From NCBI GenBank assembly GCA_913055785.1, contig CAJXLJ010000031.1, positions 1-33,864 on the forward strand: 33,864 nt of DNA. The letters run 5' to 3'. The notes under the pieces are model-generated. The model was given only the letters and a program-made list of their open reading frames with translations, was not told where the DNA came from and ran no database searches. This document shows positions 1 to 16,156 of the stretch, piece after piece. The DNA is from an uncultured Parvularculaceae bacterium. Lineage in GTDB: Bacteria; Pseudomonadota; Alphaproteobacteria; Caulobacterales; Parvularculaceae. Every line of letters starts with the position of its first letter. Positions within the stretch are counted from its first letter, which is position 1. Both the position numbers and the translations under genes were made by a program.

Positions 1-1071
1 GCCTTGAACCAGGCCGAGGCGGGCGCCGACATCTCGGCGGGGACGAAGACGGTCGATTTCGACTATGAACGGGCGATGGCGGGCGGGCTCGATGCGCCGT
101 TCATGTCGATCTATGTGGCGGCGGATTATGAAGAGAAGGGCGGCGCCAGGGCCCGCGCAGATATCCTGATCGGCCTCATGGAGGGCGTCGCCGCGCAATA
201 TCCGGACAAGTTCGAGATCGCCTACAGCCCGAAGGACGTGCGACGCATCCATGAGGAGGGCAAGATCGCCATGCCGATGGGCATGGAGAACGGTTCGCCT
301 GTTGAGGGCGACCTCGCCAATCTCAAACATTTCTACGATCGCGGCGTCCGCTACATCACGCTCGCTCATTCGAAGTCGAACCACATTTCGGATTCGTCCT
401 ATGACGACAACAAGCGCTGGGACGGCCTTTCGCCTTTCGGTTTCGAACTGGTCCGCGCCATGAACGATCTCGGGATCATGGTCGATGTCAGTCATCTGAG
501 CGACGCGGCGATTGAGGACGTGTTGGCGACGACGCGCGTTCCGGTGATCGCGTCGCATTCCTCGCTGCGTCACTTCACGCCGGGTTTTGAGCGCAACCTC
601 TCCGACGATCTTGTGAAACAGGTCGGCGAGAATGGCGGCGTCGTCATGATCAATTTCGGCTCGTCTTTTCTGACAGCGGCGGCGAACGGCTATTCAAAGC
701 CCCGTAATGAAGCGCGCGATGCGGAAATCAAACGGCTCGGCCGGGCGATGACCGATGAAGAGCGCGCCGCGTTCAATGCAGCCTGGATCAAGGACCATCC
801 CTATCCGTTCGCGACCCTGGAAGACGTGCTCGATCATATCGACCGGGCGGTCGATATCGCCGGGATCGATCATGTGGGGATCGGTTCGGACTATGACGGG
901 GTCGGGCCCAGCCTGCCGGTCGGGCTCAAGGACGTTTCGACTTTTCCGGTCCTGATCGACGGGCTGTTGGCGCGCGGCTATGACGAGGCGGCGATTGAGA
1001 AAATCCTCGGACTGAATGCGCTAAGGGTCTGGGAAGCGGTTGAAAAGGGCCGGCGCAAGCGGAAGTTTTAG
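1..1071 (+). CDS. M19 membrane dipeptidase (renal dipeptidase family), 5' truncated by window edge
   Basis: Zinc-dependent dipeptidase of the amidohydrolase superfamily, cleaving dipeptides. The reading frame is open from base 1, and the N-terminal HxD zinc-ligand motif expected near the start of this family is absent, so the true start lies upstream of the window. The remaining ligands are visible: the Glu of MGMENG, the His of VDVSHLSD, the His of ASHSS and the Asp of GIGSDYDG near the C-terminus. About 356 residues are present, compared with 350-420 for complete members. It ends 59 bases before the antitoxin gene; a separate promoter lies between them. Subcellular location cannot be judged without the N-terminus. 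Confidence 0.88.
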   Translation, partial: ALNQAEAGADISAGTKTVDFDYERAMAGGLDAPFMSIYVAADYEEKGGARARADILIGLMEGVAAQYPDKFEIAYSPKDVRRIHEEGKIAMPMGMENGSPVEGDLANLKHFYDRGVRYITLAHSKSNHISDSSYDDNKRWDGLSPFGFELVRAMNDLGIMVDVSHLSDAAIEDVLATTRVPVIASHSSLRHFTPGFERNLSDDLVKQVGENGGVVMINFGSSFLTAAANGYSKPRNEARDAEIKRLGRAMTDEERAAFNAAWIKDHPYPFATLEDVLDHIDRAVDIAGIDHVGIGSDYDGVGPSLPVGLKDVSTFPVLIDGLLARGYDEAAIEKILGLNALRVWEAVEKGRRKRKF

Positions 1072-1076
1072 CGGCC

Positions 1077-1105
1077 TTGACCCGTTATAACAGAAGTTAT
1101 ATATA
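1077..1105 (+). promoter_or_regulatory. Promoter of the AbrB/Doc module
   Basis: A sigma-70-like pair: TTGACC at 1077-1082 and TATATA at 1100-1105, separated by 17 bases. The -10 hexamer lies inside the central palindrome of the operator array, so a bound repressor would block it. This is a sequence inference; the start point has not been mapped. Confidence 0.55.
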
Positions 1106-1119
1106 ACTTTCGTTATAAC
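1084..1119. promoter_or_regulatory. Triple-palindrome operator upstream of the toxin-antitoxin genes
   Basis: Three self-complementary blocks: GTTATAAC at 1084-1091, GTTATATATAAC at 1096-1107 and GTTATAAC at 1112-1119. They are separated by the 4-base spacers AGAA and TTTC, so the centres are exactly 14 bases apart and the whole array is nearly symmetric about 1101.5. It covers the -10 region and ends two bases before the GGAGG ribosome binding site of the antitoxin. AbrB/MazE-type antitoxins bind palindromes as dimers, so autoregulation is the likely role. Confidence 0.7.
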
Positions 1120-1130
1120 TGGAGGCCGCC

Positions 1131-1358
1131 ATGTCAGACCGTTTGAAAGTTCGCCCGATCGGTAATTCCGCGTGCGTGGTTCTCAGTAAAGAAATGCTGA
1201 GCGAACTCGGCGTCGGGATTGGCGACGAATTGCAGGCTGTCCGCACAGCGAAGGGATATGAGCTTTCGGTTTTCGATGCCGAACTCGATGACGCGCTGAA
1301 GTGGATCGAAAAAGGCGCGAAGCGATACCGCAACACGCTGCGCGCGCTCGCCAAGTAA
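1131..1358 (+). CDS. AbrB/MazE-type antitoxin of a Doc toxin module
   Basis: A 75-residue DNA-binding antitoxin. The N-terminal half carries the swapped-hairpin AbrB/SpoVT signature (LKVRPIGNSACVVLSKEML, then LGVGIGDEL). The C-terminal tail ending RYRNTLRALAK is typical of antitoxins paired with Doc toxins and would bind and neutralise the toxin. GGAGG at 1121-1125 sits five bases before ATG, fixing the start. The toxin gene begins 13 bases after the stop. The palindromic array just upstream suggests autorepression. Confidence 0.85.
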   Translation: MSDRLKVRPIGNSACVVLSKEMLSELGVGIGDELQAVRTAKGYELSVFDAELDDALKWIEKGAKRYRNTLRALAK

Positions 1359-1371
1359 ATTTCGCCGTCTC

Positions 1372-1752
1372 GTGAAAATCCTGTGGCTGACCAGAGACAT
1401 CGCCCTTGCCGCTCATATTCGCAGCTTGCGAGACCATGGCGGCGCAGACGGCGTGCGTGACGAGGGTATGCTGGATAGCGCGCTGGCGCGGCCGCAAAAT
1501 CTCGCAGCCTATGGCAAACCTTCCATTTTCGAACTCGCTGCGAGCTATGGGTTCGGGCTCGTCAAAAATCATCCCTTTATAGATGGTAATAAGAGAACGG
1601 CGTTTCTCTCGACTTATGTGTTCCTGGGCCTGAATGGCCATGAACTTGACGCCGACGAAGCTGAAGCCGCGGCTATCATGCTGGACCTCGCCGCCGGCGG
1701 GGTCAGCGAAGCAGAATTTGCGCTTTGGCTGGAAGCAAGTTGCACGCGGTGA
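1372..1752 (+). CDS. doc: Doc-type Fic-fold toxin (death on curing)
   Basis: A 126-residue Fic/Doc protein. The active-site motif HPFIDGNKR (residues 67-75) matches the Doc form HxFx(D/N)xNKR rather than the HPFxxGNGR of AMP-transferring Fic proteins. Doc of phage P1 phosphorylates EF-Tu and stops translation; the same reaction is assumed here from family membership. The start is GTG with no clear Shine-Dalgarno, 13 bases after the antitoxin stop, suggesting translation coupled to, and weaker than, the antitoxin. A conserved membrane-protein gene follows five bases after the stop. Confidence 0.88.
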   Translation: MKILWLTRDIALAAHIRSLRDHGGADGVRDEGMLDSALARPQNLAAYGKPSIFELAASYGFGLVKNHPFIDGNKRTAFLSTYVFLGLNGHELDADEAEAAAIMLDLAAGGVSEAEFALWLEASCTR

Positions 1753-1757
1753 CGCAG

Positions 1758-2246
1758 ATGAAATGGCTGTTTCCGTTTGACCGGTTCGAGTTTGTCAGCG
1801 TCAAAACGGCGGCTGAAAGCGCGGCCACGCTTCAGCATCATACGTCGCCGATCCGGCTGTTCCGCTTGAAAGCCCCTGATAAACAGTTCGCCGGGGTTGT
1901 ATCGCATAATGGCTTCAAAATTTCTCCAGTGATTACTTATAGAAACAGTTTTTCACCGGTAATCATCGGTGCGTTTCTACCTCATCAGAATGGTGTGAGG
2001 ATCAGTGTGTTTCAGCGGCCGCCTGTTTTTACGCTGGCCTTCATGACAATTTGGTTGGGGTTGACGTGGTTTATTGGCGGCGCAAACGCCTTTGCGGATG
2101 AGGGCGGCCTCGCGGACAAATTATTCGTTCTGGCGATGACGGCCTTCGCCTTTGCCCTGACATCAGGCGGGTTTTGGTGGGAAGCGCGTCATACGAAGGA
2201 CGAACTGATAACGATTCTGGACGGTAGTGAGATAGGCCCGCTATAG
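1758..2246 (+). CDS. Conserved hypothetical protein with two transmembrane helices
   Basis: A 162-residue protein of unknown function. The start at MKWLFPFDRFEF is preferred over an upstream GTG because it matches the usual beginning of this conserved family as I recall it, and it has a GGTGA at 1749-1753 overlapping the toxin stop. The N-terminal half is soluble (a region around GFKISPVITYRNSF looks conserved). Hydrophobic helices follow at about residues 90-110 and 122-140, then a short charged tail. Its position five bases after doc gives probable co-transcription, but nothing links it to toxin function. Base composition is lower in GC than the genes to its right. Confidence 0.7.
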   Translation: MKWLFPFDRFEFVSVKTAAESAATLQHHTSPIRLFRLKAPDKQFAGVVSHNGFKISPVITYRNSFSPVIIGAFLPHQNGVRISVFQRPPVFTLAFMTIWLGLTWFIGGANAFADEGGLADKLFVLAMTAFAFALTSGGFWWEARHTKDELITILDGSEIGPL

Positions 2247-2281
2247 ACTGGGCGGAACGCAACGAAGCGGGATGAAATCAT

Positions 2282-3160
2282 ATGACAACCCTCAAAGGCA
2301 AAACCCTGTTCATCACCGGCGCAAGCCGCGGCATTGGTCTCGCGATCGGTCTCCGCGCCGCGCGCGACGGCGCGAATGTGGCGATCGCCGCGAAATCCGC
2401 CGAACCGCACAAGCACCTTCCGGGCACCATCTATACGGCGGCGGAAGAAATCGAGAAGGCGGGCGGCAGGGCGCTGCCGCTGATCGTCGACGTGCGCGAC
2501 GAACACGGCGTTGCTGAAGCGGTTGAAAAAACCGCGAGCGAATTCGGCGGCATCGATATCTGCGTCAACAACGCTTCGGCGATCTCGCTGACCGGCACCG
2601 AGGCGACGGAAATGAAGCGCTACGACCTCATGAATCAGATCAATGCGCGCGGAACCTATCTCACCTCGAAAATGTGCATCCCGCATCTCAAAAAGGCGGA
2701 GAACCCGCATGTGCTGATGCTTTCGCCGCCGCTCGACATGAGCGCCAAATGGTTCGCGCCCCATGTCGCCTATTCCATGGCGAAGTTCGGCATGTCGCTT
2801 TGCGTGCTCGGCATGGCGGAAGAGTTCAAAAATGACGGGATCGCCTTCAACGCCCTGTGGCCGAGGACGGCGATTGCCACGGCGGCGGTGAAGTTCGCGC
2901 TCGGCGGCGACGCGATGATGCAGGCCTCGCGCACCGTCGATATTCTCGCCGACGCCGCGCATATGATCTTCACCAAACCGTCGCGCGAATGCACCGGCAA
3001 TTTCCTGATCGACGACACGTTCCTTTACGAGAACGGCGTCACGGATTTCGAGAAATACCGCGTCGACCCGTCTAAGAAGATGGTCATCGATTTCTTCGTG
3101 CCGGACGACATTCCGCCGCCGCCGGGCGTTGCGGAAACGCTGGCGACGTCGCTCGTCTAG
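2282..3160 (+). CDS. SDR-family oxidoreductase, HSDL2-like
   Basis: A 292-residue short-chain dehydrogenase. The nucleotide-binding motif TGASRGIG is at residues 12-19, VNNAS at 95-99, and the catalytic set S148, Y164 and K168 (YSMAK) is present. The long insert KSAEPHKHLPGTIYTAAEEI and the LSPPLDM segment are typical of HSDL2-type SDRs, linked in other organisms to fatty-acid or sterol-type substrates; the actual substrate is unknown. It lacks the sterol-carrier domain of animal HSDL2. The stop codon overlaps the convergent M20 peptidase gene by four bases (3157-3160). Confidence 0.85.
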   Translation: MTTLKGKTLFITGASRGIGLAIGLRAARDGANVAIAAKSAEPHKHLPGTIYTAAEEIEKAGGRALPLIVDVRDEHGVAEAVEKTASEFGGIDICVNNASAISLTGTEATEMKRYDLMNQINARGTYLTSKMCIPHLKKAENPHVLMLSPPLDMSAKWFAPHVAYSMAKFGMSLCVLGMAEEFKNDGIAFNALWPRTAIATAAVKFALGGDAMMQASRTVDILADAAHMIFTKPSRECTGNFLIDDTFLYENGVTDFEKYRVDPSKKMVIDFFVPDDIPPPPGVAETLATSLV

Positions 3161-4620
3161 GGCGCGCCCGCCGTCTTGCGGATGAACGCCTCGTACCACG
3201 CTGCGGCGCGGGCGAGGTTTTCAAGGCTCACATGCTCGTCGGTGCCGTGAATGCGTTTCAAATCCGCATTCTCGTAGATGAACGGCGTGAACCGGTAATT
3301 GTCGTCGGCGAGATCCACATAATGTTTTGAATCCGTACCCTGCAGCGTCAGCGAGGGCGCGACCGGGACAGGTCCGAAAATCATCGCCGTCGTATCCGCT
3401 ATGGCCTTATAAGCGTCCGACTTGATCGAGGATTGCGGGCTCGGCTCCTGCGAACTCAGCACTTCAATCGCAATGTCGCCGCCCGCGAGGCGCTGGGCGC
3501 GATCGCGCACCGACTGGACGCTGTCGCGCGGATGGATGCGGTAATTGATAATCGCGTAGGCGTTTTGCGGCAGGATGTTCGACTTGGCGCCGCCTTCGAT
3601 CATCGTCGGCGCCGTCGTCGTGTGCAGCGAGGCGGCGGTGACGGGATCCTTCATCAGCCGCGTCTTGACCATGTGATCGGTGAGCCAGAGATTGGAGAGC
3701 AGCATGCGGTTGAAGAACGGCAGTTCGGGCGCGATGGCGTGCAGAAACGCGGTCACGTTGGCGTCGATTTTCGCCGGGAACGGGTGATCGCTCGCGGCGA
3801 CCACGGCGCGGGCGGCGAGGGAGACGGCGGTGTCGGGCTGCGGCGCGGATGAGTGTCCGCCTTCTGCTCGCGCGGTGAACCGCAGTGTGATCGATCCCTT
3901 TTCAGCGGTGGAGATCAGCGCTACGGGCTTGTCGACGCCGGGGACCAGCCCGTCGACAACGCCGGAGCCTTCATCGAGCGTGAACGCGAAATGAACGCCG
4001 CGCGCTTTCAATGTTTCGGCGATGGCGGCGGCGCCGTTCGGTCCGCCAAGTTCCTCGTCATGACCGATCAGCAGATAAATATCGCGCGACGGTGCAAAGC
4101 CCGAAGCGGCGAGCCGTTCGATCGCCTCGAAGATGGGCATGAGATGTCCCTTGTCGTCGAGCGAACCGCGGCCCCACAGGGCGCCGTCGTGAATGTCGCC
4201 GGAAAAAGGCGGGCGCGTCCACTGGTCTTCCGTGCCCTGTTCAACCGGCACGACGTCCATATGGGCGATGAACCCGACGGGCTTTTGCGCCGCGTCCGCG
4301 CCTTTCCAGCGGTAAATGAGGGAATAGCCGCCGGCGCGCTCGACCGTCATCGCTTCATGCGCCGCCGGATAGGCGCGCTCGAGGAATGCGGCGAAAGCGC
4401 CGAAGGCGTTCGCGTCCGGCGTGCGTCCGTCGCCCCAAGAGATCGTCCTTATACGCACCGCCTCTCCGAGCCGCTCGGCGATCGCCTCGCCGTCATAGAA
4501 CTCATACTGGATAGGCGTCACCGCAATGCTTGTATCCGCGCCAATCATCACGGTGCGGGTCACGAGAACGGCGATGAGGAGTATGATGGCGCCGGCGGCG
4601 ACGAACAGGATTTTCTTCAT
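3157..4620 (-). CDS. M20-family zinc peptidase, carboxypeptidase S-like, membrane-anchored
   Basis: A 487-residue metallopeptidase. The start at MKKILF (4620) is chosen because GGAG lies a few bases upstream and a signal-anchor helix follows at residues about 2-22; an earlier in-frame ATG at 4698 lacks these. Motifs of the co-catalytic zinc site are visible: HMDVVP (H120, D122), GRGSLDDKG (D155), GHDEELGG (E189, E190), and TDSKHY near the C-terminus. The layout resembles yeast carboxypeptidase S and PM20D1 relatives, which cleave or condense N-acyl amino acids and small peptides. The anchor predicts activity in the periplasm. It is divergent from the ankyrin gene with 126 bases between. Confidence 0.88.
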   Translation of the reverse strand: MKKILFVAAGAIILLIAVLVTRTVMIGADTSIAVTPIQYEFYDGEAIAERLGEAVRIRTISWGDGRTPDANAFGAFAAFLERAYPAAHEAMTVERAGGYSLIYRWKGADAAQKPVGFIAHMDVVPVEQGTEDQWTRPPFSGDIHDGALWGRGSLDDKGHLMPIFEAIERLAASGFAPSRDIYLLIGHDEELGGPNGAAAIAETLKARGVHFAFTLDEGSGVVDGLVPGVDKPVALISTAEKGSITLRFTARAEGGHSSAPQPDTAVSLAARAVVAASDHPFPAKIDANVTAFLHAIAPELPFFNRMLLSNLWLTDHMVKTRLMKDPVTAASLHTTTAPTMIEGGAKSNILPQNAYAIINYRIHPRDSVQSVRDRAQRLAGGDIAIEVLSSQEPSPQSSIKSDAYKAIADTTAMIFGPVPVAPSLTLQGTDSKHYVDLADDNYRFTPFIYENADLKRIHGTDEHVSLENLARAAAWYEAFIRKTAGAP

Positions 4621-4700
4621 GAGCGGGCTCCGAAAGCGGTAGAAAATCAAGCTAGTATAATGTGCGTAGATACTCCCGGTCGAGAGGCTCGTCAGCACGA

Positions 4701-4713
4701 TAATAGTGTATTA
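4701..4713. promoter_or_regulatory. Small AT-rich palindrome between M20 peptidase and ankyrin gene
   Basis: TAATA-GTG-TATTA, a perfect 5-base inverted repeat with a 3-base centre, in the 126-base divergent region. It could be part of a promoter or an operator for the ankyrin gene 34 bases downstream. The repeat is short, so chance is possible. Confidence 0.25.
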
Positions 4714-4746
4714 CTCTCCTGGCGGTGCGGTTTCGGGGCGGCATGC

Positions 4747-6807
4747 ATGCGCGATATTACCATTCTTATCTCATGTCTGGCGGCGATGTCGCTGTCGATG
4801 GCCGCGATTGCTTTATTTAACAACGGCCAGTCTCACATAAGTCATGTTGTGGAGGGCGACTGGGTTTTCTCAAGGATGCCGACAGAAAGGGAATATGCGA
4901 TATCAGACGAGAGCGGAGACGATATTTATATCCGGGAAGCGCTTCTCTTCGAGCAAGCAATTGCAGAAGGCGAGCCCGCCGCCGTAGCTTCTCGCGCGAT
5001 TGAGTTCGGTAATTTTGGATTTATTGCGGTGTCATATTTTGGCGGAGCTGCAGTGCCAGGAATTTCTTGTGTAACTCCAGTTCAGGGAAAGGGCCCCTTG
5101 GTTAGGCGCTACTATGGGGTCAGCGATTACAGAACTGGCCCGCCACAAGACAGACGAGACGATGCAATTCATGATTATGCAGTCAACTACAATCAATTCA
5201 TCGTTCAACACCAAAAGACCGCTTTTCGAGACATATGCTGGGCGACTGGCAAGGGCGATGAAACGGTTCAACTCGACCTTCATCAAGGGTGGTTGCCTAC
5301 ATATAGTCTGGAACGCATTAAAAATGACAATGTCTTGGGCGCTATGCCTCATCCCTATGAGGGTGATTTGCCCGTCAATTCCCTAATTGACGCTGCACGC
5401 CACGGTGATGCGGTCACGGTAAAAAAACTGGTTTCCAAAAAGAACGTAAATAACGTTGATGGTTTCGCCATGACGGCGCTTGGGTGGGCTGTGTTGCGCG
5501 GGCATTCGGATGTCGCGAAAGTGCTGATTGACGGAGACGCCGACTTAAACAAAGCCTCCGGCATGGCGTCAAGAACACCGCTGATTTGGGCGGTTTACGC
5601 CGATAGAAAAGAGATATTCGACCTTCTGCTAAACGCCGGCGCCGATCCAAACGCTACGGGTCTTCCGCTGATGAGCGAAGATAGCGAGGTGCCGGATAAC
5701 TATGACAGGGAAGCCTTGATTGAAAGACCTGTCTATACGGCGGCGATCCGCGGCGCTGAATATTATGTGAGAAAATTGCGCGACGCGGGAGCCAGGCTGG
5801 AATTCGAACACGAATTTTCGCCTCTTTCCTGGGCGGTTGTCGGCGGCGATTTCGAAATTGTAAAATTGCTGCTGGATCTCGGCGCCGACCCAAATCATTC
5901 ACCTCAGCCAAGCAGCAAATATGATGATAATTTCTTGCCGCCGTTGGCGATTGCGGCAGGAAGCAACAATACCGATCTCATGACATTGCTGCTCTCCTTT
6001 GGCGCAGATATCGATAATGTTAGCAATAAGGGCGGCGGCAGCGCGCTGCAGACAGCGCTTGATAATAATAACCTTGAAGCAGTTCGTTTTTTATTTGAAT
6101 CAGACGCCGACCCGAATGTCGGCAGGCTAGAGCGCGCCTTGGGAGCTTCAACTAATGCAGAAAGCGCGCTTCATATTGCAGCGTTCTTTCTGATTAATAA
6201 GAAGTTCGAGTCCGATCCTTTGAGATTGCTAATCGAAGCTGGCGCCGATCTCGATGAAGTCAGCGGGTATCAACGTGATACAGCATTAGGGTACGCCGCA
6301 GACTGGTTGATAATAAAAGCGGTTGAAATGCTTATCGATGCCGGCGCCGATCTGAACAGACAGAATGAAGACGGCTTGTCTCCTTTGATGGGCGCCGTGC
6401 AAGGCGAGTACACGACATGCAAACCCGAAACAAAACGTGTCGTTAGAGCATTGTTGTCCGCTGGCGCAGACGCGACGGTGCAGGACTACGAAGGCCGCAC
6501 GGCGTTTTACTTTCGTTGCGCGCACCTTGTTGGAGAAGAGTTGATATCGGCGGGGTTGGATGTGAATTCTAAAGACCTGCTTGGGCGAACAGCGATTTTT
6601 TCGATGCTGTCATGCTTGAAAGCTAATCCGCCGTCAGACATCGATAATTTTGTGGCATTCAACACATGTAAATCGCTGTTGGCTTTCCTGATTAATAACG
6701 GGGCTGATTTAACTAGCCCCGACATTTGGGGCGTTACACCGCTACAGGCGGCGGAATATTACGGTCTCCTCGATATTGTTGAGAAGGCGCGGGCGGCCGC
6801 ACACTAG
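4747..6807 (+). CDS. Exported or membrane-anchored ankyrin-repeat protein
   Basis: A 686-residue protein. The start at 4747 (MRDITILIS) is supported by GGGGCGG at 4735-4741 and by the hydrophobic signal-like segment at residues 3-24 that it exposes; the open frame upstream is only the shadow of the opposite gene. Residues about 25-205 form a domain I do not recognise. From about 210 to the end there are roughly 13 ankyrin repeats with the usual (T/S)PLxxA...LLxxGADxN pattern, several degenerate, which should form a protein-binding solenoid. Codon use is AT-richer than in neighbours (bases 6601-6660 are 45% GC by hand count), suggesting acquisition. The stop overlaps that of the convergent glycosyltransferase. 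Confidence 0.85.
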   Translation: MRDITILISCLAAMSLSMAAIALFNNGQSHISHVVEGDWVFSRMPTEREYAISDESGDDIYIREALLFEQAIAEGEPAAVASRAIEFGNFGFIAVSYFGGAAVPGISCVTPVQGKGPLVRRYYGVSDYRTGPPQDRRDDAIHDYAVNYNQFIVQHQKTAFRDICWATGKGDETVQLDLHQGWLPTYSLERIKNDNVLGAMPHPYEGDLPVNSLIDAARHGDAVTVKKLVSKKNVNNVDGFAMTALGWAVLRGHSDVAKVLIDGDADLNKASGMASRTPLIWAVYADRKEIFDLLLNAGADPNATGLPLMSEDSEVPDNYDREALIERPVYTAAIRGAEYYVRKLRDAGARLEFEHEFSPLSWAVVGGDFEIVKLLLDLGADPNHSPQPSSKYDDNFLPPLAIAAGSNNTDLMTLLLSFGADIDNVSNKGGGSALQTALDNNNLEAVRFLFESDADPNVGRLERALGASTNAESALHIAAFFLINKKFESDPLRLLIEAGADLDEVSGYQRDTALGYAADWLIIKAVEMLIDAGADLNRQNEDGLSPLMGAVQGEYTTCKPETKRVVRALLSAGADATVQDYEGRTAFYFRCAHLVGEELISAGLDVNSKDLLGRTAIFSMLSCLKANPPSDIDNFVAFNTCKSLLAFLINNGADLTSPDIWGVTPLQAAEYYGLLDIVEKARAAAH

Positions 6808-7565
6808 CCGCCTCTGAGCCGCAGCCATGTCCGCGCGGCGTCGACCCGCTTGCCGATGGAGCGTTCGAGCTTCATGCGCCGCAGGCGCAGTTTTTTAAGC
6901 GCCGAGCCTTCGTGCATGTCGCCGCCTTTCGGTCGCGCGCCGATGGTCGAGACGATGTCGCGCTCGAAGACCAGCGGCGGCGACAGCGCGGCGGTGACGA
7001 GGCTGTTGCGGAAGGTTTCGCCGAGATGCGTGTCGGCGGCGAGGTGAAAACGCTCAAGGCTTTTCGCGGCTTTCGCGGCGCCTTGTTTCGTATAGATCGA
7101 TCCGAGCAGGCCGTGGGTCGCGTTGAAAGGAACGATCAGGTCGTAGCGGTCATTGAGTTTGCGCACTTTCAAGGGGCGTTTGTTCTTGCGCGCGAGATGA
7201 AAGCGGACGACGTCCCATTTCGCTTCGCGGCCCAAGAGATCGCGGATCGCAGTTTCGAAATCGCCCGCGAGCTTCACGTCGTCCTCAAGCACGACGCCGA
7301 ATGCGTTGCCGGAAGCGAGGAATGTTTCTAGCGCGCGCTTGTGAGAGAGGGCGCAGGCGATTTCGTTGGGGGCGAGATCGGCGCCGTAGCGAAGGCGCGC
7401 TTTCCGGTCGTATTCCTTCACCGACGCGATATCGAGCGCGCGTCCATCGACCGCCTCGATGAACTGCGCCGGAAATGAAATCTGCGCGAACTGCTCTTCC
7501 ATCAGCGCCCGGCGGGCGCCGGCGTCTTGGAGATTGATGCAGTAAAGAGCGACGGAAGCGGTCAT
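6804..7565 (-). CDS. Glycosyltransferase family 25 (lipooligosaccharide type)
   Basis: A 253-residue glycosyltransferase of the LPS/LOS-modifying family 25. Visible motifs are YCINLQDAGARR at the N-terminus (beta strand plus basic turn), ALSHKRALE at 72-80, and VVLEDDV with the acidic metal/nucleotide-sugar site at 94-96. A later HLGETF segment fits the family acceptor region. The start at MTASVALYCINL is chosen because the family begins directly with this strand and a GGGA lies upstream; the longer open frame adds only a basic, non-conserved leader. It likely adds a sugar to surface lipid or glycan. The last bases overlap the ankyrin gene stop (CTAG). Confidence 0.82.
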   Translation of the reverse strand: MTASVALYCINLQDAGARRALMEEQFAQISFPAQFIEAVDGRALDIASVKEYDRKARLRYGADLAPNEIACALSHKRALETFLASGNAFGVVLEDDVKLAGDFETAIRDLLGREAKWDVVRFHLARKNKRPLKVRKLNDRYDLIVPFNATHGLLGSIYTKQGAAKAAKSLERFHLAADTHLGETFRNSLVTAALSPPLVFERDIVSTIGARPKGGDMHEGSALKKLRLRRMKLERSIGKRVDAARTWLRLRGG

Positions 7566-9247: not shown

Positions 9248-9350
9248 GAGCAATTAAGCGCTTACGGGGCGTTTGTTCAAATCCGAATTTAACCCGGACG
9301 AGCTTACTTGTTGCCGAAATAACGGCTGCGTGGCTGTCTGTAGCGAGTCG

Positions 9351-10424
9351 TTACAGCTTGCGGGGCGGATCCGGACAATAGTCCATAGGCAGAGGCGAGT
9401 TGAAGAGATTCAAATTATGATCAAACCGGCTCACTATAATCGGCCGGACAGCAAGAAAGCTGGAAACATCCGCGGCTGGCGTAAAGGGGCCTAAGAGTGT
9501 GCGAATGTCTGCTTCTGACGCTGATCGATACTTGTCCATATATGATTTTAGTGTTGTCGCTGAGCATGTTGCGCTAGGGCTATTGCAAATTTTATCTAGC
9601 TGCCTTTGCCAGCAAGTGAAGTACTCCACTTTTTGATAAATTGGATTGACAGTATAGAATTGTTTTGCATGCCGGAAAGTCCGGCTGTTATCGATTGCAA
9701 CCTCGATCGTTTGGTATTTTCCGCTGATCATCCAGTTTTTTTCGTGGCGGTCCGTGCTGCCTAAAATAGCGTCAAGCAAGCGCAATTTCTGAGATTTATC
9801 GGAATCGTCGTAGCCAAGGTTTTGCGCCGTGTAGGCGCTCTCTATCCAGTATTGCAGGGAACCTTTTATATTTTTGCACTGACTATAGTCATTTCCTGAA
9901 GCGGAGTTGCGAATCTTAGGAAGGGCATATACGCAGCGGGGAACGGAGGATAGGTCCGCTGTATATTCAATTGTCAATGGAACAAGGTTTAAGCCTAACC
10001 ATTGGTCGATTTTATAAGCAGCCACTTCGCGCGCTGAAGTGCAGTCGTGGCAGAATCTGTCCGAGTCGTAGGTTTTAAAAAGCCCTATGGCGCCGTTTTT
10101 AAAGTGAAGTTTAAACGAATAAGCGGCGCCGCTATTGAATTTTTCGACCTTGACCGGTTTGCCGCGAAGAACTGATTCCATGTCGGCGAGGACTGCTCGG
10201 GCTTTGGCGGCATCTCCTCTTTCTGCAAACAACCAAGCGGCCTGTTGCGGCAGGCCAAAGCATAAATACTGTTCAGCTTCATCGGTTACGCCGCTGCATT
10301 TTGCATAGTTATTGGTTCGTCCGAGAAAGGCTTCAAACACTGGCGTCATGTTAGCAGTGTTGAAAATGGCTGCGCCAAAAAGTCCCGCAACAACGGCTAA
10401 AAAAAGAATCGCTATTGTCCGCAT
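9351..10424 (-). CDS. Exported, cysteine-rich FAM20-like atypical kinase candidate
   Basis: A 357-residue protein with a signal-like segment at residues 3-20. The start at 10424 is set by GGGAGG about ten bases upstream. The order of motifs matches FAM20/secretory kinases: a Lys strand (GLFK, K117), a helix Glu (AREVAAYKIDQWLGLNLVP, E133), GSL at 188-190, the catalytic loop LLDAILGSTDRHEKN (D225) and the metal site VAIDNSRTF (D245), followed by RHAK and PIYQK. In human FAM20C I recall the corresponding segments GNMDRHH and HLDNGRGFGK. Ten cysteines remain after the signal, consistent with periplasmic disulfides. The gene is AT-rich (bases 9541-9600 are 40% GC). Function and substrate are unknown; a PI3/4-kinase-like relative is the main alternative. 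Confidence 0.65.
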   Translation of the reverse strand: MRTIAILFLAVVAGLFGAAIFNTANMTPVFEAFLGRTNNYAKCSGVTDEAEQYLCFGLPQQAAWLFAERGDAAKARAVLADMESVLRGKPVKVEKFNSGAAYSFKLHFKNGAIGLFKTYDSDRFCHDCTSAREVAAYKIDQWLGLNLVPLTIEYTADLSSVPRCVYALPKIRNSASGNDYSQCKNIKGSLQYWIESAYTAQNLGYDDSDKSQKLRLLDAILGSTDRHEKNWMISGKYQTIEVAIDNSRTFRHAKQFYTVNPIYQKVEYFTCWQRQLDKICNSPSATCSATTLKSYMDKYRSASEADIRTLLGPFTPAADVSSFLAVRPIIVSRFDHNLNLFNSPLPMDYCPDPPRKL

Positions 10425-10515
10425 GATGCATGCCCCTCCCGAAAAACATTCTTGTTTTGTAGCGGCCAGGGTCGACCGCACGACTCTATGAAATACGGCA
10501 TCAAATACAGATGAA

Positions 10516-10545
10516 ATATTAGCTGGGAATTTACTCAAATTGCAA
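10516..10545 (-). promoter_or_regulatory. Promoter candidate for the FAM20-like gene
   Basis: On the minus strand, TTGCAA (10545-10540) and TAATAT (10521-10516) are separated by 18 bases and lie about 90 bases before the ATG. This would let the kinase-like gene be transcribed independently of the LytTR operon upstream. The region is AT-rich, so chance matches are easier. Confidence 0.4.
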
Positions 10546-10560
10546 GTCGCCAAATTAAGG

Positions 10561-10580
10561 CAAGCAATTCAAACTGCTTG
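10561..10580. terminator. Weak hairpin after the LytTR regulator gene
   Basis: CAAGCA and TGCTTG form a perfect 6-base inverted repeat around an 8-base loop, starting 10 bases after the regulator stop on the minus strand. No strong U-run follows, so it may be a weak terminator or chance. Confidence 0.25.
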
Positions 10581-10590
10581 ACGTGTGCGT

Positions 10591-14977: not shown

Positions 14978-16156
14978 CTAGACCGCCTGTCCCGCCGCCC
15001 AGCCGGACGACCACGCCCATTGAAAATTATAGCCGCCGAGCCAGCCGGTCACGTCGACCGCTTCGCCGATGAAATAAAGACCGGGCGCTTGCGTTGCTTC
15101 CATGGTCTTTGAAGAAAGACCCGCCGTGTCGACGCCGCCGAGGGTGACTTCCGCGGTGCGCCAGCCCTCGGAGCCGACGGGCTTCAGGCGCCAGTCGGCG
15201 ACGGCGTTGCAGAGGGACGCGAGCCGCGCATCGGAATAGTCGGCGATGCGGCCTTCCGCGCCGGCGCGGTTCGCGATCGCTTCGGCGAGGCGCTTCGGCA
15301 GGATCGCCGACAGCACCGTATGCGGCGCCGACTTGCCGCTTTGGCGCCTGGCGTCCTTGAACAATGCGCTGAGATCGGCGCCCGGCGCGAGGTCGATGCT
15401 GATTTCGTCGCCCTCGCGCCAGTAAGAGGAGATTTGCAGGATCGACGGACCCGAGACGCCGCGATGGGTGAAGAGCAGCGCCTCGCGAAACGTCGCGCCG
15501 TTGCAGGAGACCGCCGCTTCGGTGCTGACGCCGGAGAGGACTTTCGTCTGTGCAAGGAGGTCTTCGGCGAAAGTGAGCGGCACAAGCGCCGGGCGCGGCT
15601 CGACGATGGCGAGGCCGAACTGCCGGGCGATGCGATAGGCGAAACCGGTGGCGCCCATTTTCGGGATCGACTTGCCGCCCGTGGCGATCACCAGCGCGGC
15701 GCAGTCGATCGGCCCCGCTTCGGTCGTCAGCCGGTAGCGGTCGTCGTCGCGCGCGACCTCCGTCACCGCCGTTGAGAGACGCATCTCCACATTCGCCTCG
15801 CGGCAATCGCCGGTAAGCATGTCGATGATCTGTTTTGACGACTGATCGCAGAAAAGCTGGCCCAGGGTCTTTTCATGCCAGGCGATCCCGCGGGCGTCGA
15901 CCCGGGCGATAAAGTCGGCGGGCGTGTAGCGTTTGAGCGCGGAGACGCAAAAATGCGGGTTCTTCGAAAGGAAGTTTTTGGGCCCCGCGCGGCTGTTGGT
16001 GAAATTGCAGCGGCCGCCGCCGGAAATGCGAATCTTTTCGCCGGGTGCTGAAGCGTGATCGATCAGCATGACGCGCCGCCCGCGCCGTCCCGCTTCAATT
16101 GCGCACATCATGCCGGCGGCGCCGGCGCCGACAATGCAGACATCGACCGTTTTCAT
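14978..16156 (-). CDS. HI0933/YhiN-type FAD-dependent oxidoreductase
   Basis: A 392-residue flavoprotein. The N-terminal Rossmann motif is VGAGAAGMMCAIEAGRRG (about residues 9-26). The family signature GEKIRISGGGRCNFTNS follows at about 39-55, then LVIATGG (second FAD contact), and the C-terminal YFIGEAVDVTGWLGGYNFQWAWSSG. Members are annotated as aminoacetone oxidase-like or simply as NAD(P)/FAD-dependent oxidoreductases; the physiological reaction is not established. It is complete. The minus-strand terminator of the upstream AhpD-like gene lies between the two, so this gene probably has its own promoter. Confidence 0.9.
   Translation of the reverse strand: MKTVDVCIVGAGAAGMMCAIEAGRRGRRVMLIDHASAPGEKIRISGGGRCNFTNSRAGPKNFLSKNPHFCVSALKRYTPADFIARVDARGIAWHEKTLGQLFCDQSSKQIIDMLTGDCREANVEMRLSTAVTEVARDDDRYRLTTEAGPIDCAALVIATGGKSIPKMGATGFAYRIARQFGLAIVEPRPALVPLTFAEDLLAQTKVLSGVSTEAAVSCNGATFREALLFTHRGVSGPSILQISSYWREGDEISIDLAPGADLSALFKDARRQSGKSAPHTVLSAILPKRLAEAIANRAGAEGRIADYSDARLASLCNAVADWRLKPVGSEGWRTAEVTLGGVDTAGLSSKTMEATQAPGLYFIGEAVDVTGWLGGYNFQWAWSSGWAAGQAV

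Follow-up and report, generated by a model that had tools for sequence, protein, structure and literature searches.

A candidate exported kinase of the PI4K-II/FAM20 type on a single-gene island in an uncultured Parvularculaceae bacterium

Animals employ kinases of the FAM20 and PI4K kind on secreted proteins or on membrane lipids. Kinases of the FAM20 family are secretory, have Ser-x-Glu protein kinase or xylose kinase activity as a hallmark and have mostly been discussed as animal enzymes. Type II PI4 kinases are lipid kinases that work at the cytosolic face and carry a CCPCC palmitoylation motif, and HipA kinases are cytosolic. In the active sites of PI3/PI4 kinases and FAM20, a Lys/Glu pair positions the nucleotide, a loop Asp the acceptor, and an Asn together with an Asp the metal. 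Few bacterial kinases are known to act outside the cytoplasm. The spore-coat kinase CotH is a bacterial enzyme that acts beyond the usual cytosolic setting, as one report describes (PMC7821199). An exact-phrase literature search for bacterial FAM20 returned no paper, which does not in itself establish absence from print, and the word "bacteria" is absent from the main text of a paper on Fam20 structure and evolution (PMC5865150).

We describe a gene of an uncultured Parvularculaceae bacterium, located in the window (the whole stretch of DNA analysed here, 33,864 nucleotides of contig CAJXLJ010000031.1), and its product, P0001. The domain family to which the product belongs is already in databases as PI3/PI4-kinase-like, phage proteins so named included. 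What appears new in P0001 is a putative export leader and a richness in cysteine in a bacterial member of this known superfamily branch.

Kinase assignment from profiles and models

The reading frame begins with an ATG at 10424, ends with a stop at 9351-9353 and is free of internal stops across its 357 codons (Table 1). A ribosome-binding-like sequence, GGGAGGGG, lies upstream of the ATG. A preliminary description, made from the sequence alone, had proposed an exported FAM20-like kinase with motifs at K117, E133, G188-S189-L190, S223-T224-D225-R226-H227 and A243-I244-D245-N246...F250. The translation has every one of these in place, and with them the FAM20-type order of Lys/Glu pair, DRH loop and metal-binding Asp.

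Table 1. Features of the P0001 locus, in window coordinates
Feature	Position	Strand	Basis
P0001 gene, candidate exported PI4K-II/FAM20-type kinase, 357 aa	9351..10424	-	profiles, Foldseek, conservation
Leader, residues 1-20, MRT plus hydrophobic core; putative signal peptide or N-in anchor	10365..10424	-	hydropathy, AF2
N-terminal helical segment, residues 27-86, with C43 and C55, ahead of kinase N-lobe	10167..10346	-	helices, both AF2 models
N-lobe strand, residues 114-118, predicted catalytic Lys K117	10071..10085	-	K in 79/80 phage relatives (one R)
Helix, residues 131-145, AREVAAYKIDQWLGL, predicted ion-pair Glu E133	9990..10034	-	E in 76/80 phage relatives, D in 4/80
Residues 164-185, between C164 and C183, directly N-terminal to GSLQ strand	9870..9935	-	alignment
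GSLQY strand, residues 188-192	9849..9863	-	alignment
Predicted catalytic loop, residues 218-232, DAILGSTDRHEKNWM, contains D225 and N230	9729..9773	-	alignment, profile
Predicted metal-site motif AIDNSRTF, residues 243-250, D245	9675..9698	-	D in 80/80 phage relatives
Segment carrying the P0001 gene between two convergent genes, 1343 bp	9248..10590	.	congener comparison

Relatives were collected from viral contigs with a motif suggested by one viral relative of P0001. The corrected pattern found at least 120 loci, with an in-frame ORF at each of the 120 listed. A pattern one base short served as a rough yardstick of chance, one that is less strict at the Arg codon than the corrected pattern, and gave six loci and no in-frame motif (ORFs of at least 60 codons). 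The phage set comprised 123 ORFs, from which 115 domains passed the length filter and 87 were left after clustering. The alignment called A2 contains P0001 and 80 of the 87 domains (81 members), seven having been omitted by choice.

A profile built from the 87 phage domains, with P0001 excluded, scores P0001 at 93.8 bits. Masking 16 motif residues lowers this to 41.5 bits; the best among 1000 shuffles reaches 2.8. The score is significant independently of the search motif, and P0001 belongs with this phage/bacterial PI3/PI4-type kinase domain family. Searched alone against Pfam, P0001 matches PF00454 (PI3_PI4_kinase) with an E-value of 1.7e-5, although its score of 25.3 falls below the gathering cut-off of 27.1 bits, which counts against the kinase reading. 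In NCBIfam there is a weak match to the SCO1664 family (0.0019), and the best E-value of the protein by itself against PHROGs is 0.013. At E-values up to 10, P0001 matches neither PF06702 (Fam20C) nor the HipA_C, HipA_2 and HipA models of Pfam and NCBIfam. Members of A2 match PI3_PI4_kinase in 79 of 81 cases at E-values up to 0.01; Fam20C is matched by 9 (best 1.2e-5), ABC1 by 7, HipA_2 by 5 and MuF by 3.

Against the PDB, the A2 profile gives PI4K2A at 4.5e-18, worm Fam20 at 1.2e-13 and FAM20C at 3.3e-8, and the profile of a second alignment gives PI4K2A at 4.8e-18, worm Fam20 at 7.8e-13, zebrafish Fam20C at 4.5e-11 and FAM20C at 1.5e-10; in both rankings PI4KII comes ahead of FAM20. A phmmer search of the PDB with P0001 alone returned just two PI4K2B sequences (E-value 0.6). 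By these profile comparisons P0001 is nearest to the phage/bacterial PI3/PI4-kinase-type domain, followed by PI4K type II and then FAM20. An origin as a FAM20 orthologue or by recent gene transfer from an animal was rejected on the missing Fam20C match, the phmmer result and the phage/bacterial nearest sequences; the eukaryotic sequences searched were those of the PDB, and a eukaryotic donor beyond the PDB is possible.

Beyond the residues counted in Table 1, I244 is kept in 74 of the 80 phage relatives. Since K117, E133 and D245 were not part of the pattern that collected the relatives, their conservation goes beyond chance. D218, D225, R226, H227, N230 and W231 are invariant in the phage relatives because the pattern demanded them. 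The intact set of catalytic residues proposed at the outset is confirmed: all canonical ones are present in P0001 and conserved in the phage relatives, and K117, E133, D225 and D245 are kept, with the reservation that D225 belonged to the collecting pattern.

Structures of P0001 were predicted with AlphaFold2 from A2 (mean pLDDT 77.1, pTM 0.75) and from the second alignment of 24 sequences (pLDDT 70.9, pTM 0.71). Low-confidence stretches lie at about 253-270, 281-286 and 339-357. In Foldseek searches of the PDB, the top match of both models was PI4KII-alpha (E-values 2.0e-8 and 4.4e-7), followed by worm Golgi casein kinase (9.0e-7 and 1.5e-6) and then other FAM20 chains (FAM20A 2.3e-6). Normalized by query length, the TM-scores are modest: the PI4KII-alpha entries 4hnd and 4hne and the FAM20 chains span 0.38-0.50, the remaining PI4KII chains 0.29-0.38. 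FAM20 chains reach 0.39-0.50 and PI4KII-alpha has the better E-values; the fold does not separate FAM20 from PI4KII. At model level, the fold and active site of P0001 are of the PI4K-II/FAM20 type. The preliminary description was right in expecting a kinase fold, both models leading first to PI4KII-alpha and FAM20. Its term "FAM20-like" should be revised: the fold and the ordered Lys/Glu, DRH and metal Asp agree with FAM20, but Fam20C is unmatched, the nearest sequences are of the phage/bacterial PI3/PI4-kinase type, and membership of P0001 in FAM20 is not established.

Leader and cysteines

The best 17-residue hydropathy window of P0001 reaches 2.77, at residue 4, and the best beyond residue 40 reaches 1.26. 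A leader helix spans residues 2-20 or 2-16 in the AlphaFold2 models. For comparison, hydropathy within 45 residues of the first Met peaks at 1.36 across the 36 phage ORFs of at most 450 aa, a set with uncertain starts in which several members are near-copies or truncated at contig ends. The positive residue of the P0001 leader, R2, precedes the hydrophobic core. It is the single positive charge of the leader, and a strong cleavage site is absent, both of which count against export; a candidate site after A19, between GAA and I, was judged by eye from the -3/-1 rule.

P0001 has ten cysteines (positions 43, 55, 125, 128, 164, 183, 271, 280, 287 and 350), all past the leader. From residue 20 onward Cys amounts to 3.0%, about tenfold the 0.31% of the 80 phage domains, none of which has Cys at any of the ten aligned columns. 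The 36 short phage ORFs are richer in Cys than these domains (0.71% on average, 2.57% maximum), so the contrast is smaller there, at fourfold. Ten Cys in 338 residues correspond to a binomial p of about 4.5e-4 relative to the 27 other proteins of the window, a background with one protein ("abh2") entered out of frame and with start codons picked by eye. Export does not follow from Cys content by itself, since a flavoprotein encoded at 14978-16156 of the same window, for which export evidence was not sought, is similarly rich (9 Cys in 392 residues).

C164 and C183 sit in an insert at about residues 158-187, immediately before the GSLQ strand. At columns 164 and 183, 79 of the 80 phage relatives show a gap; at 171 and 176-179 many of them have an aligned residue. 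In the profile alignment, worm Fam20 has a Cys-rich insert at the same place, before its GS-Q strand. The Fam20 structure paper reports four disulfides in the hydra protein, among them Cys207-Cys222 and Cys212-Cys215 (PMC5865150). C164 and C183 lie on either side of the site of two Fam20 disulfides, and no confident P0001 counterparts could be assigned to the other pairs. The correspondence is one of position only and may be convergent.

Both the N-terminal signal-like segment and the ten later cysteines of the preliminary description were found. Its suggestion of export gains sequence-level support from the hydrophobic leader and the Cys enrichment, from which we infer that the catalytic domain of P0001 is probably outside the cytoplasm.

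Insertion of the gene and distribution of its relatives

The P0001 gene has a GC content of 0.475 (GC3 0.497), compared with 0.688/0.839 for the neighbour on one side and 0.623/0.724 for that on the other. These convergent neighbours, a histidine-phosphatase-family gene and a LytTR response regulator belonging to a LytTR/histidine-kinase pair, are common to the congeners. The distance between them is 28, 1 and 194 bp in three congeners and 1343 bp here. In a fourth, L187, the scripted gap of 968 bp is not comparable, as a stop interrupts the response-regulator frame. The four congener regions gave no significant kinase match (best E-value 0.093). An orthologue search of 100 genomes found P0001 in its own genome and in none of the other 99. 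Given the low GC, the wide spacing and this absence from the congener regions and the 99 genomes, the P0001 gene is a single-gene island acquired from some donor. Only short, imperfect repeats were seen around the gene, and no second inserted gene was seen beside it.

An ancestral operon with the upstream LytTR/histidine-kinase pair was rejected, as this pair and the convergent phosphatase-family gene are retained in three congeners at the close spacings given above. A defence system was likewise rejected: PADLOC gave only short, weak PDC-M03A matches over the catalytic loop (best E-value 0.0008, 20 residues).

The window contains a second lineage-specific block, at 3157-7565, which encodes an M20 peptidase, an ankyrin-repeat protein (4747-6807; hydrophobic leader, GC 0.509) and a glycosyltransferase 25. 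A search of the four congener regions found none of its genes; the two genes that flank the block have matches 66 bp from each other in L187.

Among 398 genomes of the phylum, the orthologue search returned two, the bacterium's own and G310, whose 93-residue match has four stops and was not counted. Plasmid and phage collections yielded no orthologue, a genome contig collection gave 18 pattern matches of which none was confirmed as an orthologue, and the viral collection gave one relative. No confirmed orthologue of P0001 came from these collections, which counts against the exported-kinase reading. PF00454 searches of the 100 genomes found the own genome alone and, at E-values up to 0.01, five of 385 genomes of the class, own included, the other four being weak. 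The A2 profile matched 16 of 299 phylum genomes, own included; the other 15 matches were HipA-like or leaderless by eye. None of 198 genomes around G834 and none of 16 searched with A1 matched, empty answers that carry little weight. The closest pairwise relative among the phage ORFs listed is L148 (34% over 184 aa), which as a query found no match in phages.

In 193 genomes of the phylum reached via a Pyxidicoccus contig there were 11 matches in 10 genomes. Two of the 11, the Myxococcota-group proteins L188 and L190, are leader-like at the N-terminus (by eye; hydropathy 2.26 and 2.15). L188 (G1153:C93, ORF 1135-2271, plus strand) is a stand-alone kinase-like protein with a leader ending in MAQA and the sequence ...SALVLVLLAIASMAQA; its PF00454 score of 27.6 exceeds the gathering value of 27.1, and it has the K, E, D, N and D residues with DRS in place of DRH. 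As a query it found no match in phages or plasmids. L190 (G1065:C222, ORF 337-2307, plus strand, 657 codons) combines a leader, a calcineurin-like metallophosphatase (E-value 8.1e-10) and a C-terminal kinase-like domain (PF00454 E-value 1.7e-4, below the cut-off). It could possibly be a secreted writer and eraser of phosphate, judging from its domains, although DRN for DRH and Arg in the K117 column make its kinase activity doubtful. The His of DRH is thus replaced in both leader-bearing relatives, by S in L188 and N in L190, and this counts against the exported-kinase reading. In a quick tree, P0001 joins L190 (SH-aLRT 89), possibly as a long-branch artefact, and L188 stands beside two phage proteins. 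With L188 apart from P0001, a single origin of the exported forms is not supported. In the order of G1153, 2 of 137 genomes matched, both previously found.

Further relatives were seen in other groups. Five of 139 genomes around a Planctomycetota contig encode stand-alone kinase-like proteins (L203-L207, 284-317 codons) with DRHLGN and IDN/VDN motifs, in which an evident leader is absent. A hypothetical protein of a Microbacterium plasmid (NZ_CP012699.1, 5701-6381) resembles the L190 kinase-like domain (26.6% identity, E-value 8e-10). The phage proteins L040-L159 form a large, diverse set with PI3/PI4-kinase-like domains (79 of 81 A2 members, P0001 included). PHROG 3162, which has no assigned function, matches 43 of the 81 members, and a few A2 segments also match head-morphogenesis, portal, minor-head or protease families.

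Proposed function and comparison with known systems

On balance we lean towards P0001 being a competent kinase of the PI4K-II/FAM20 branch, acquired with its island, exported through the inner membrane and possibly anchored there, its catalytic domain lying beyond the cytoplasm. The predicted reaction is phosphotransfer from a nucleotide onto a protein, glycan or lipid head group that is part of the envelope or secreted. In this scheme the nucleotide phosphates would be bound by K117 and E133, the acceptor would be placed by D225 of the DRH loop and the metal would be coordinated by N230 and D245; disulfides between the cysteines would stabilize the fold. To our knowledge, the Gram-negative periplasm is generally held to be free of ATP, so a periplasmic kinase would need an unusual nucleotide supply or would have to act elsewhere. 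Two rivals avoid this, the main difficulty of the reading. If P0001 were a phage-captured, membrane-anchored kinase with a reversed anchor, its domain would face the cytoplasm, where ATP is found. In favour of this, nearly all the relatives seen are leaderless phage and bacterial proteins (by eye or hydropathy). The positive residue ahead of the hydrophobic core argues against such an orientation, as does the Cys enrichment over both the phage domains and the short phage ORFs, and we consider it decidedly unlikely. A secreted effector, released to act inside a neighbouring cell where ATP is present, would also solve the ATP problem and would fit the leader, the cysteines, the single-gene island and the patchy distribution. 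With no second inserted gene, and with a histidine-phosphatase-family gene and a LytTR/histidine-kinase pair as neighbours that congeners also have, we hold this very unlikely.

The export of P0001 is common ground with a reading that differs in substrate, in which a lipid kinase resembling PI4K type II would phosphorylate a lipid or polyprenyl-linked head group on the outer face of the inner membrane. PI4KII is the nearest solved structure by profile and by fold, and the membrane leader suits such a role. P0001 has DRH as in FAM20, where PI4KII has DRG, it lacks the CCPCC motif, and the substrate pocket is unreadable from the models; we regard a lipid kinase as possible, if unlikely. It is more improbable still that P0001 is a pseudokinase, a HipA-type toxin, or an enzyme whose kinase fold serves another reaction such as AMPylation or glutamylation. 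The fold is known to have undergone changes of this sort (KINtaro paper, PMC10870513), and some relatives of P0001 match HipA models, but its own canonical catalytic residues are all present and conserved, and neither Pfam nor NCBIfam gives it a HipA match at E-values up to 10.

A wider proposal, which we advance as speculative and rather unlikely, is that bacteria possess an extracytoplasmic phosphorylation machinery based on PI4K-II/FAM20-type kinases, in which P0001, L188-like proteins and L190-type fusions would write and erase envelope phosphate, and that the phage/bacterial family would be an ancestor or co-descendant of eukaryotic FAM20 and PI4KII. An exported and catalytically complete bacterial relative, along with a phosphatase-kinase fusion that bears a leader, would open phosphorylation by kinase-fold enzymes in the periplasm or at the surface to direct testing, and would tie phage kinase-like domains to the PI4KII/FAM20 lineage.

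Compared with known systems, P0001 shares the domain and the catalytic residues of the phage PI3/PI4-kinase-like domains (PF00454-type; PHROG 3162; 93.8 bits). These differ from it in having no comparable leader in 36 short ORFs, 0.31% Cys and no C164/C183 stretch in 79 of 80, and the phage ORFs are often long (85 of 123 have at least 500 codons, versus 357 aa). HipA and HipA_2 kinases belong to the same superfamily and share DR..N and the metal Asp, and many bacterial matches of the phage profile are HipA-like by eye. CotH was absent from the Pfam matches of P0001, from the best 60 of 135 PDB profile matches and from the best 50 of 543 Foldseek matches. PI4K type II (PI4K2A/2B), the best PDB match by profile and Foldseek, shares the GS-Q strand and the DR...NW and IDNG-type motifs, with DRG and not DRH. 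The P0001 insert has only two Cys, and the eight-Cys pattern of FAM20 is not reproduced as a whole; with FAM20 (A/B/C and worm Golgi casein kinase) P0001 shares the Lys/Glu pair, DRH and the metal Asp, together with fold matches at E-values of about 1e-6.
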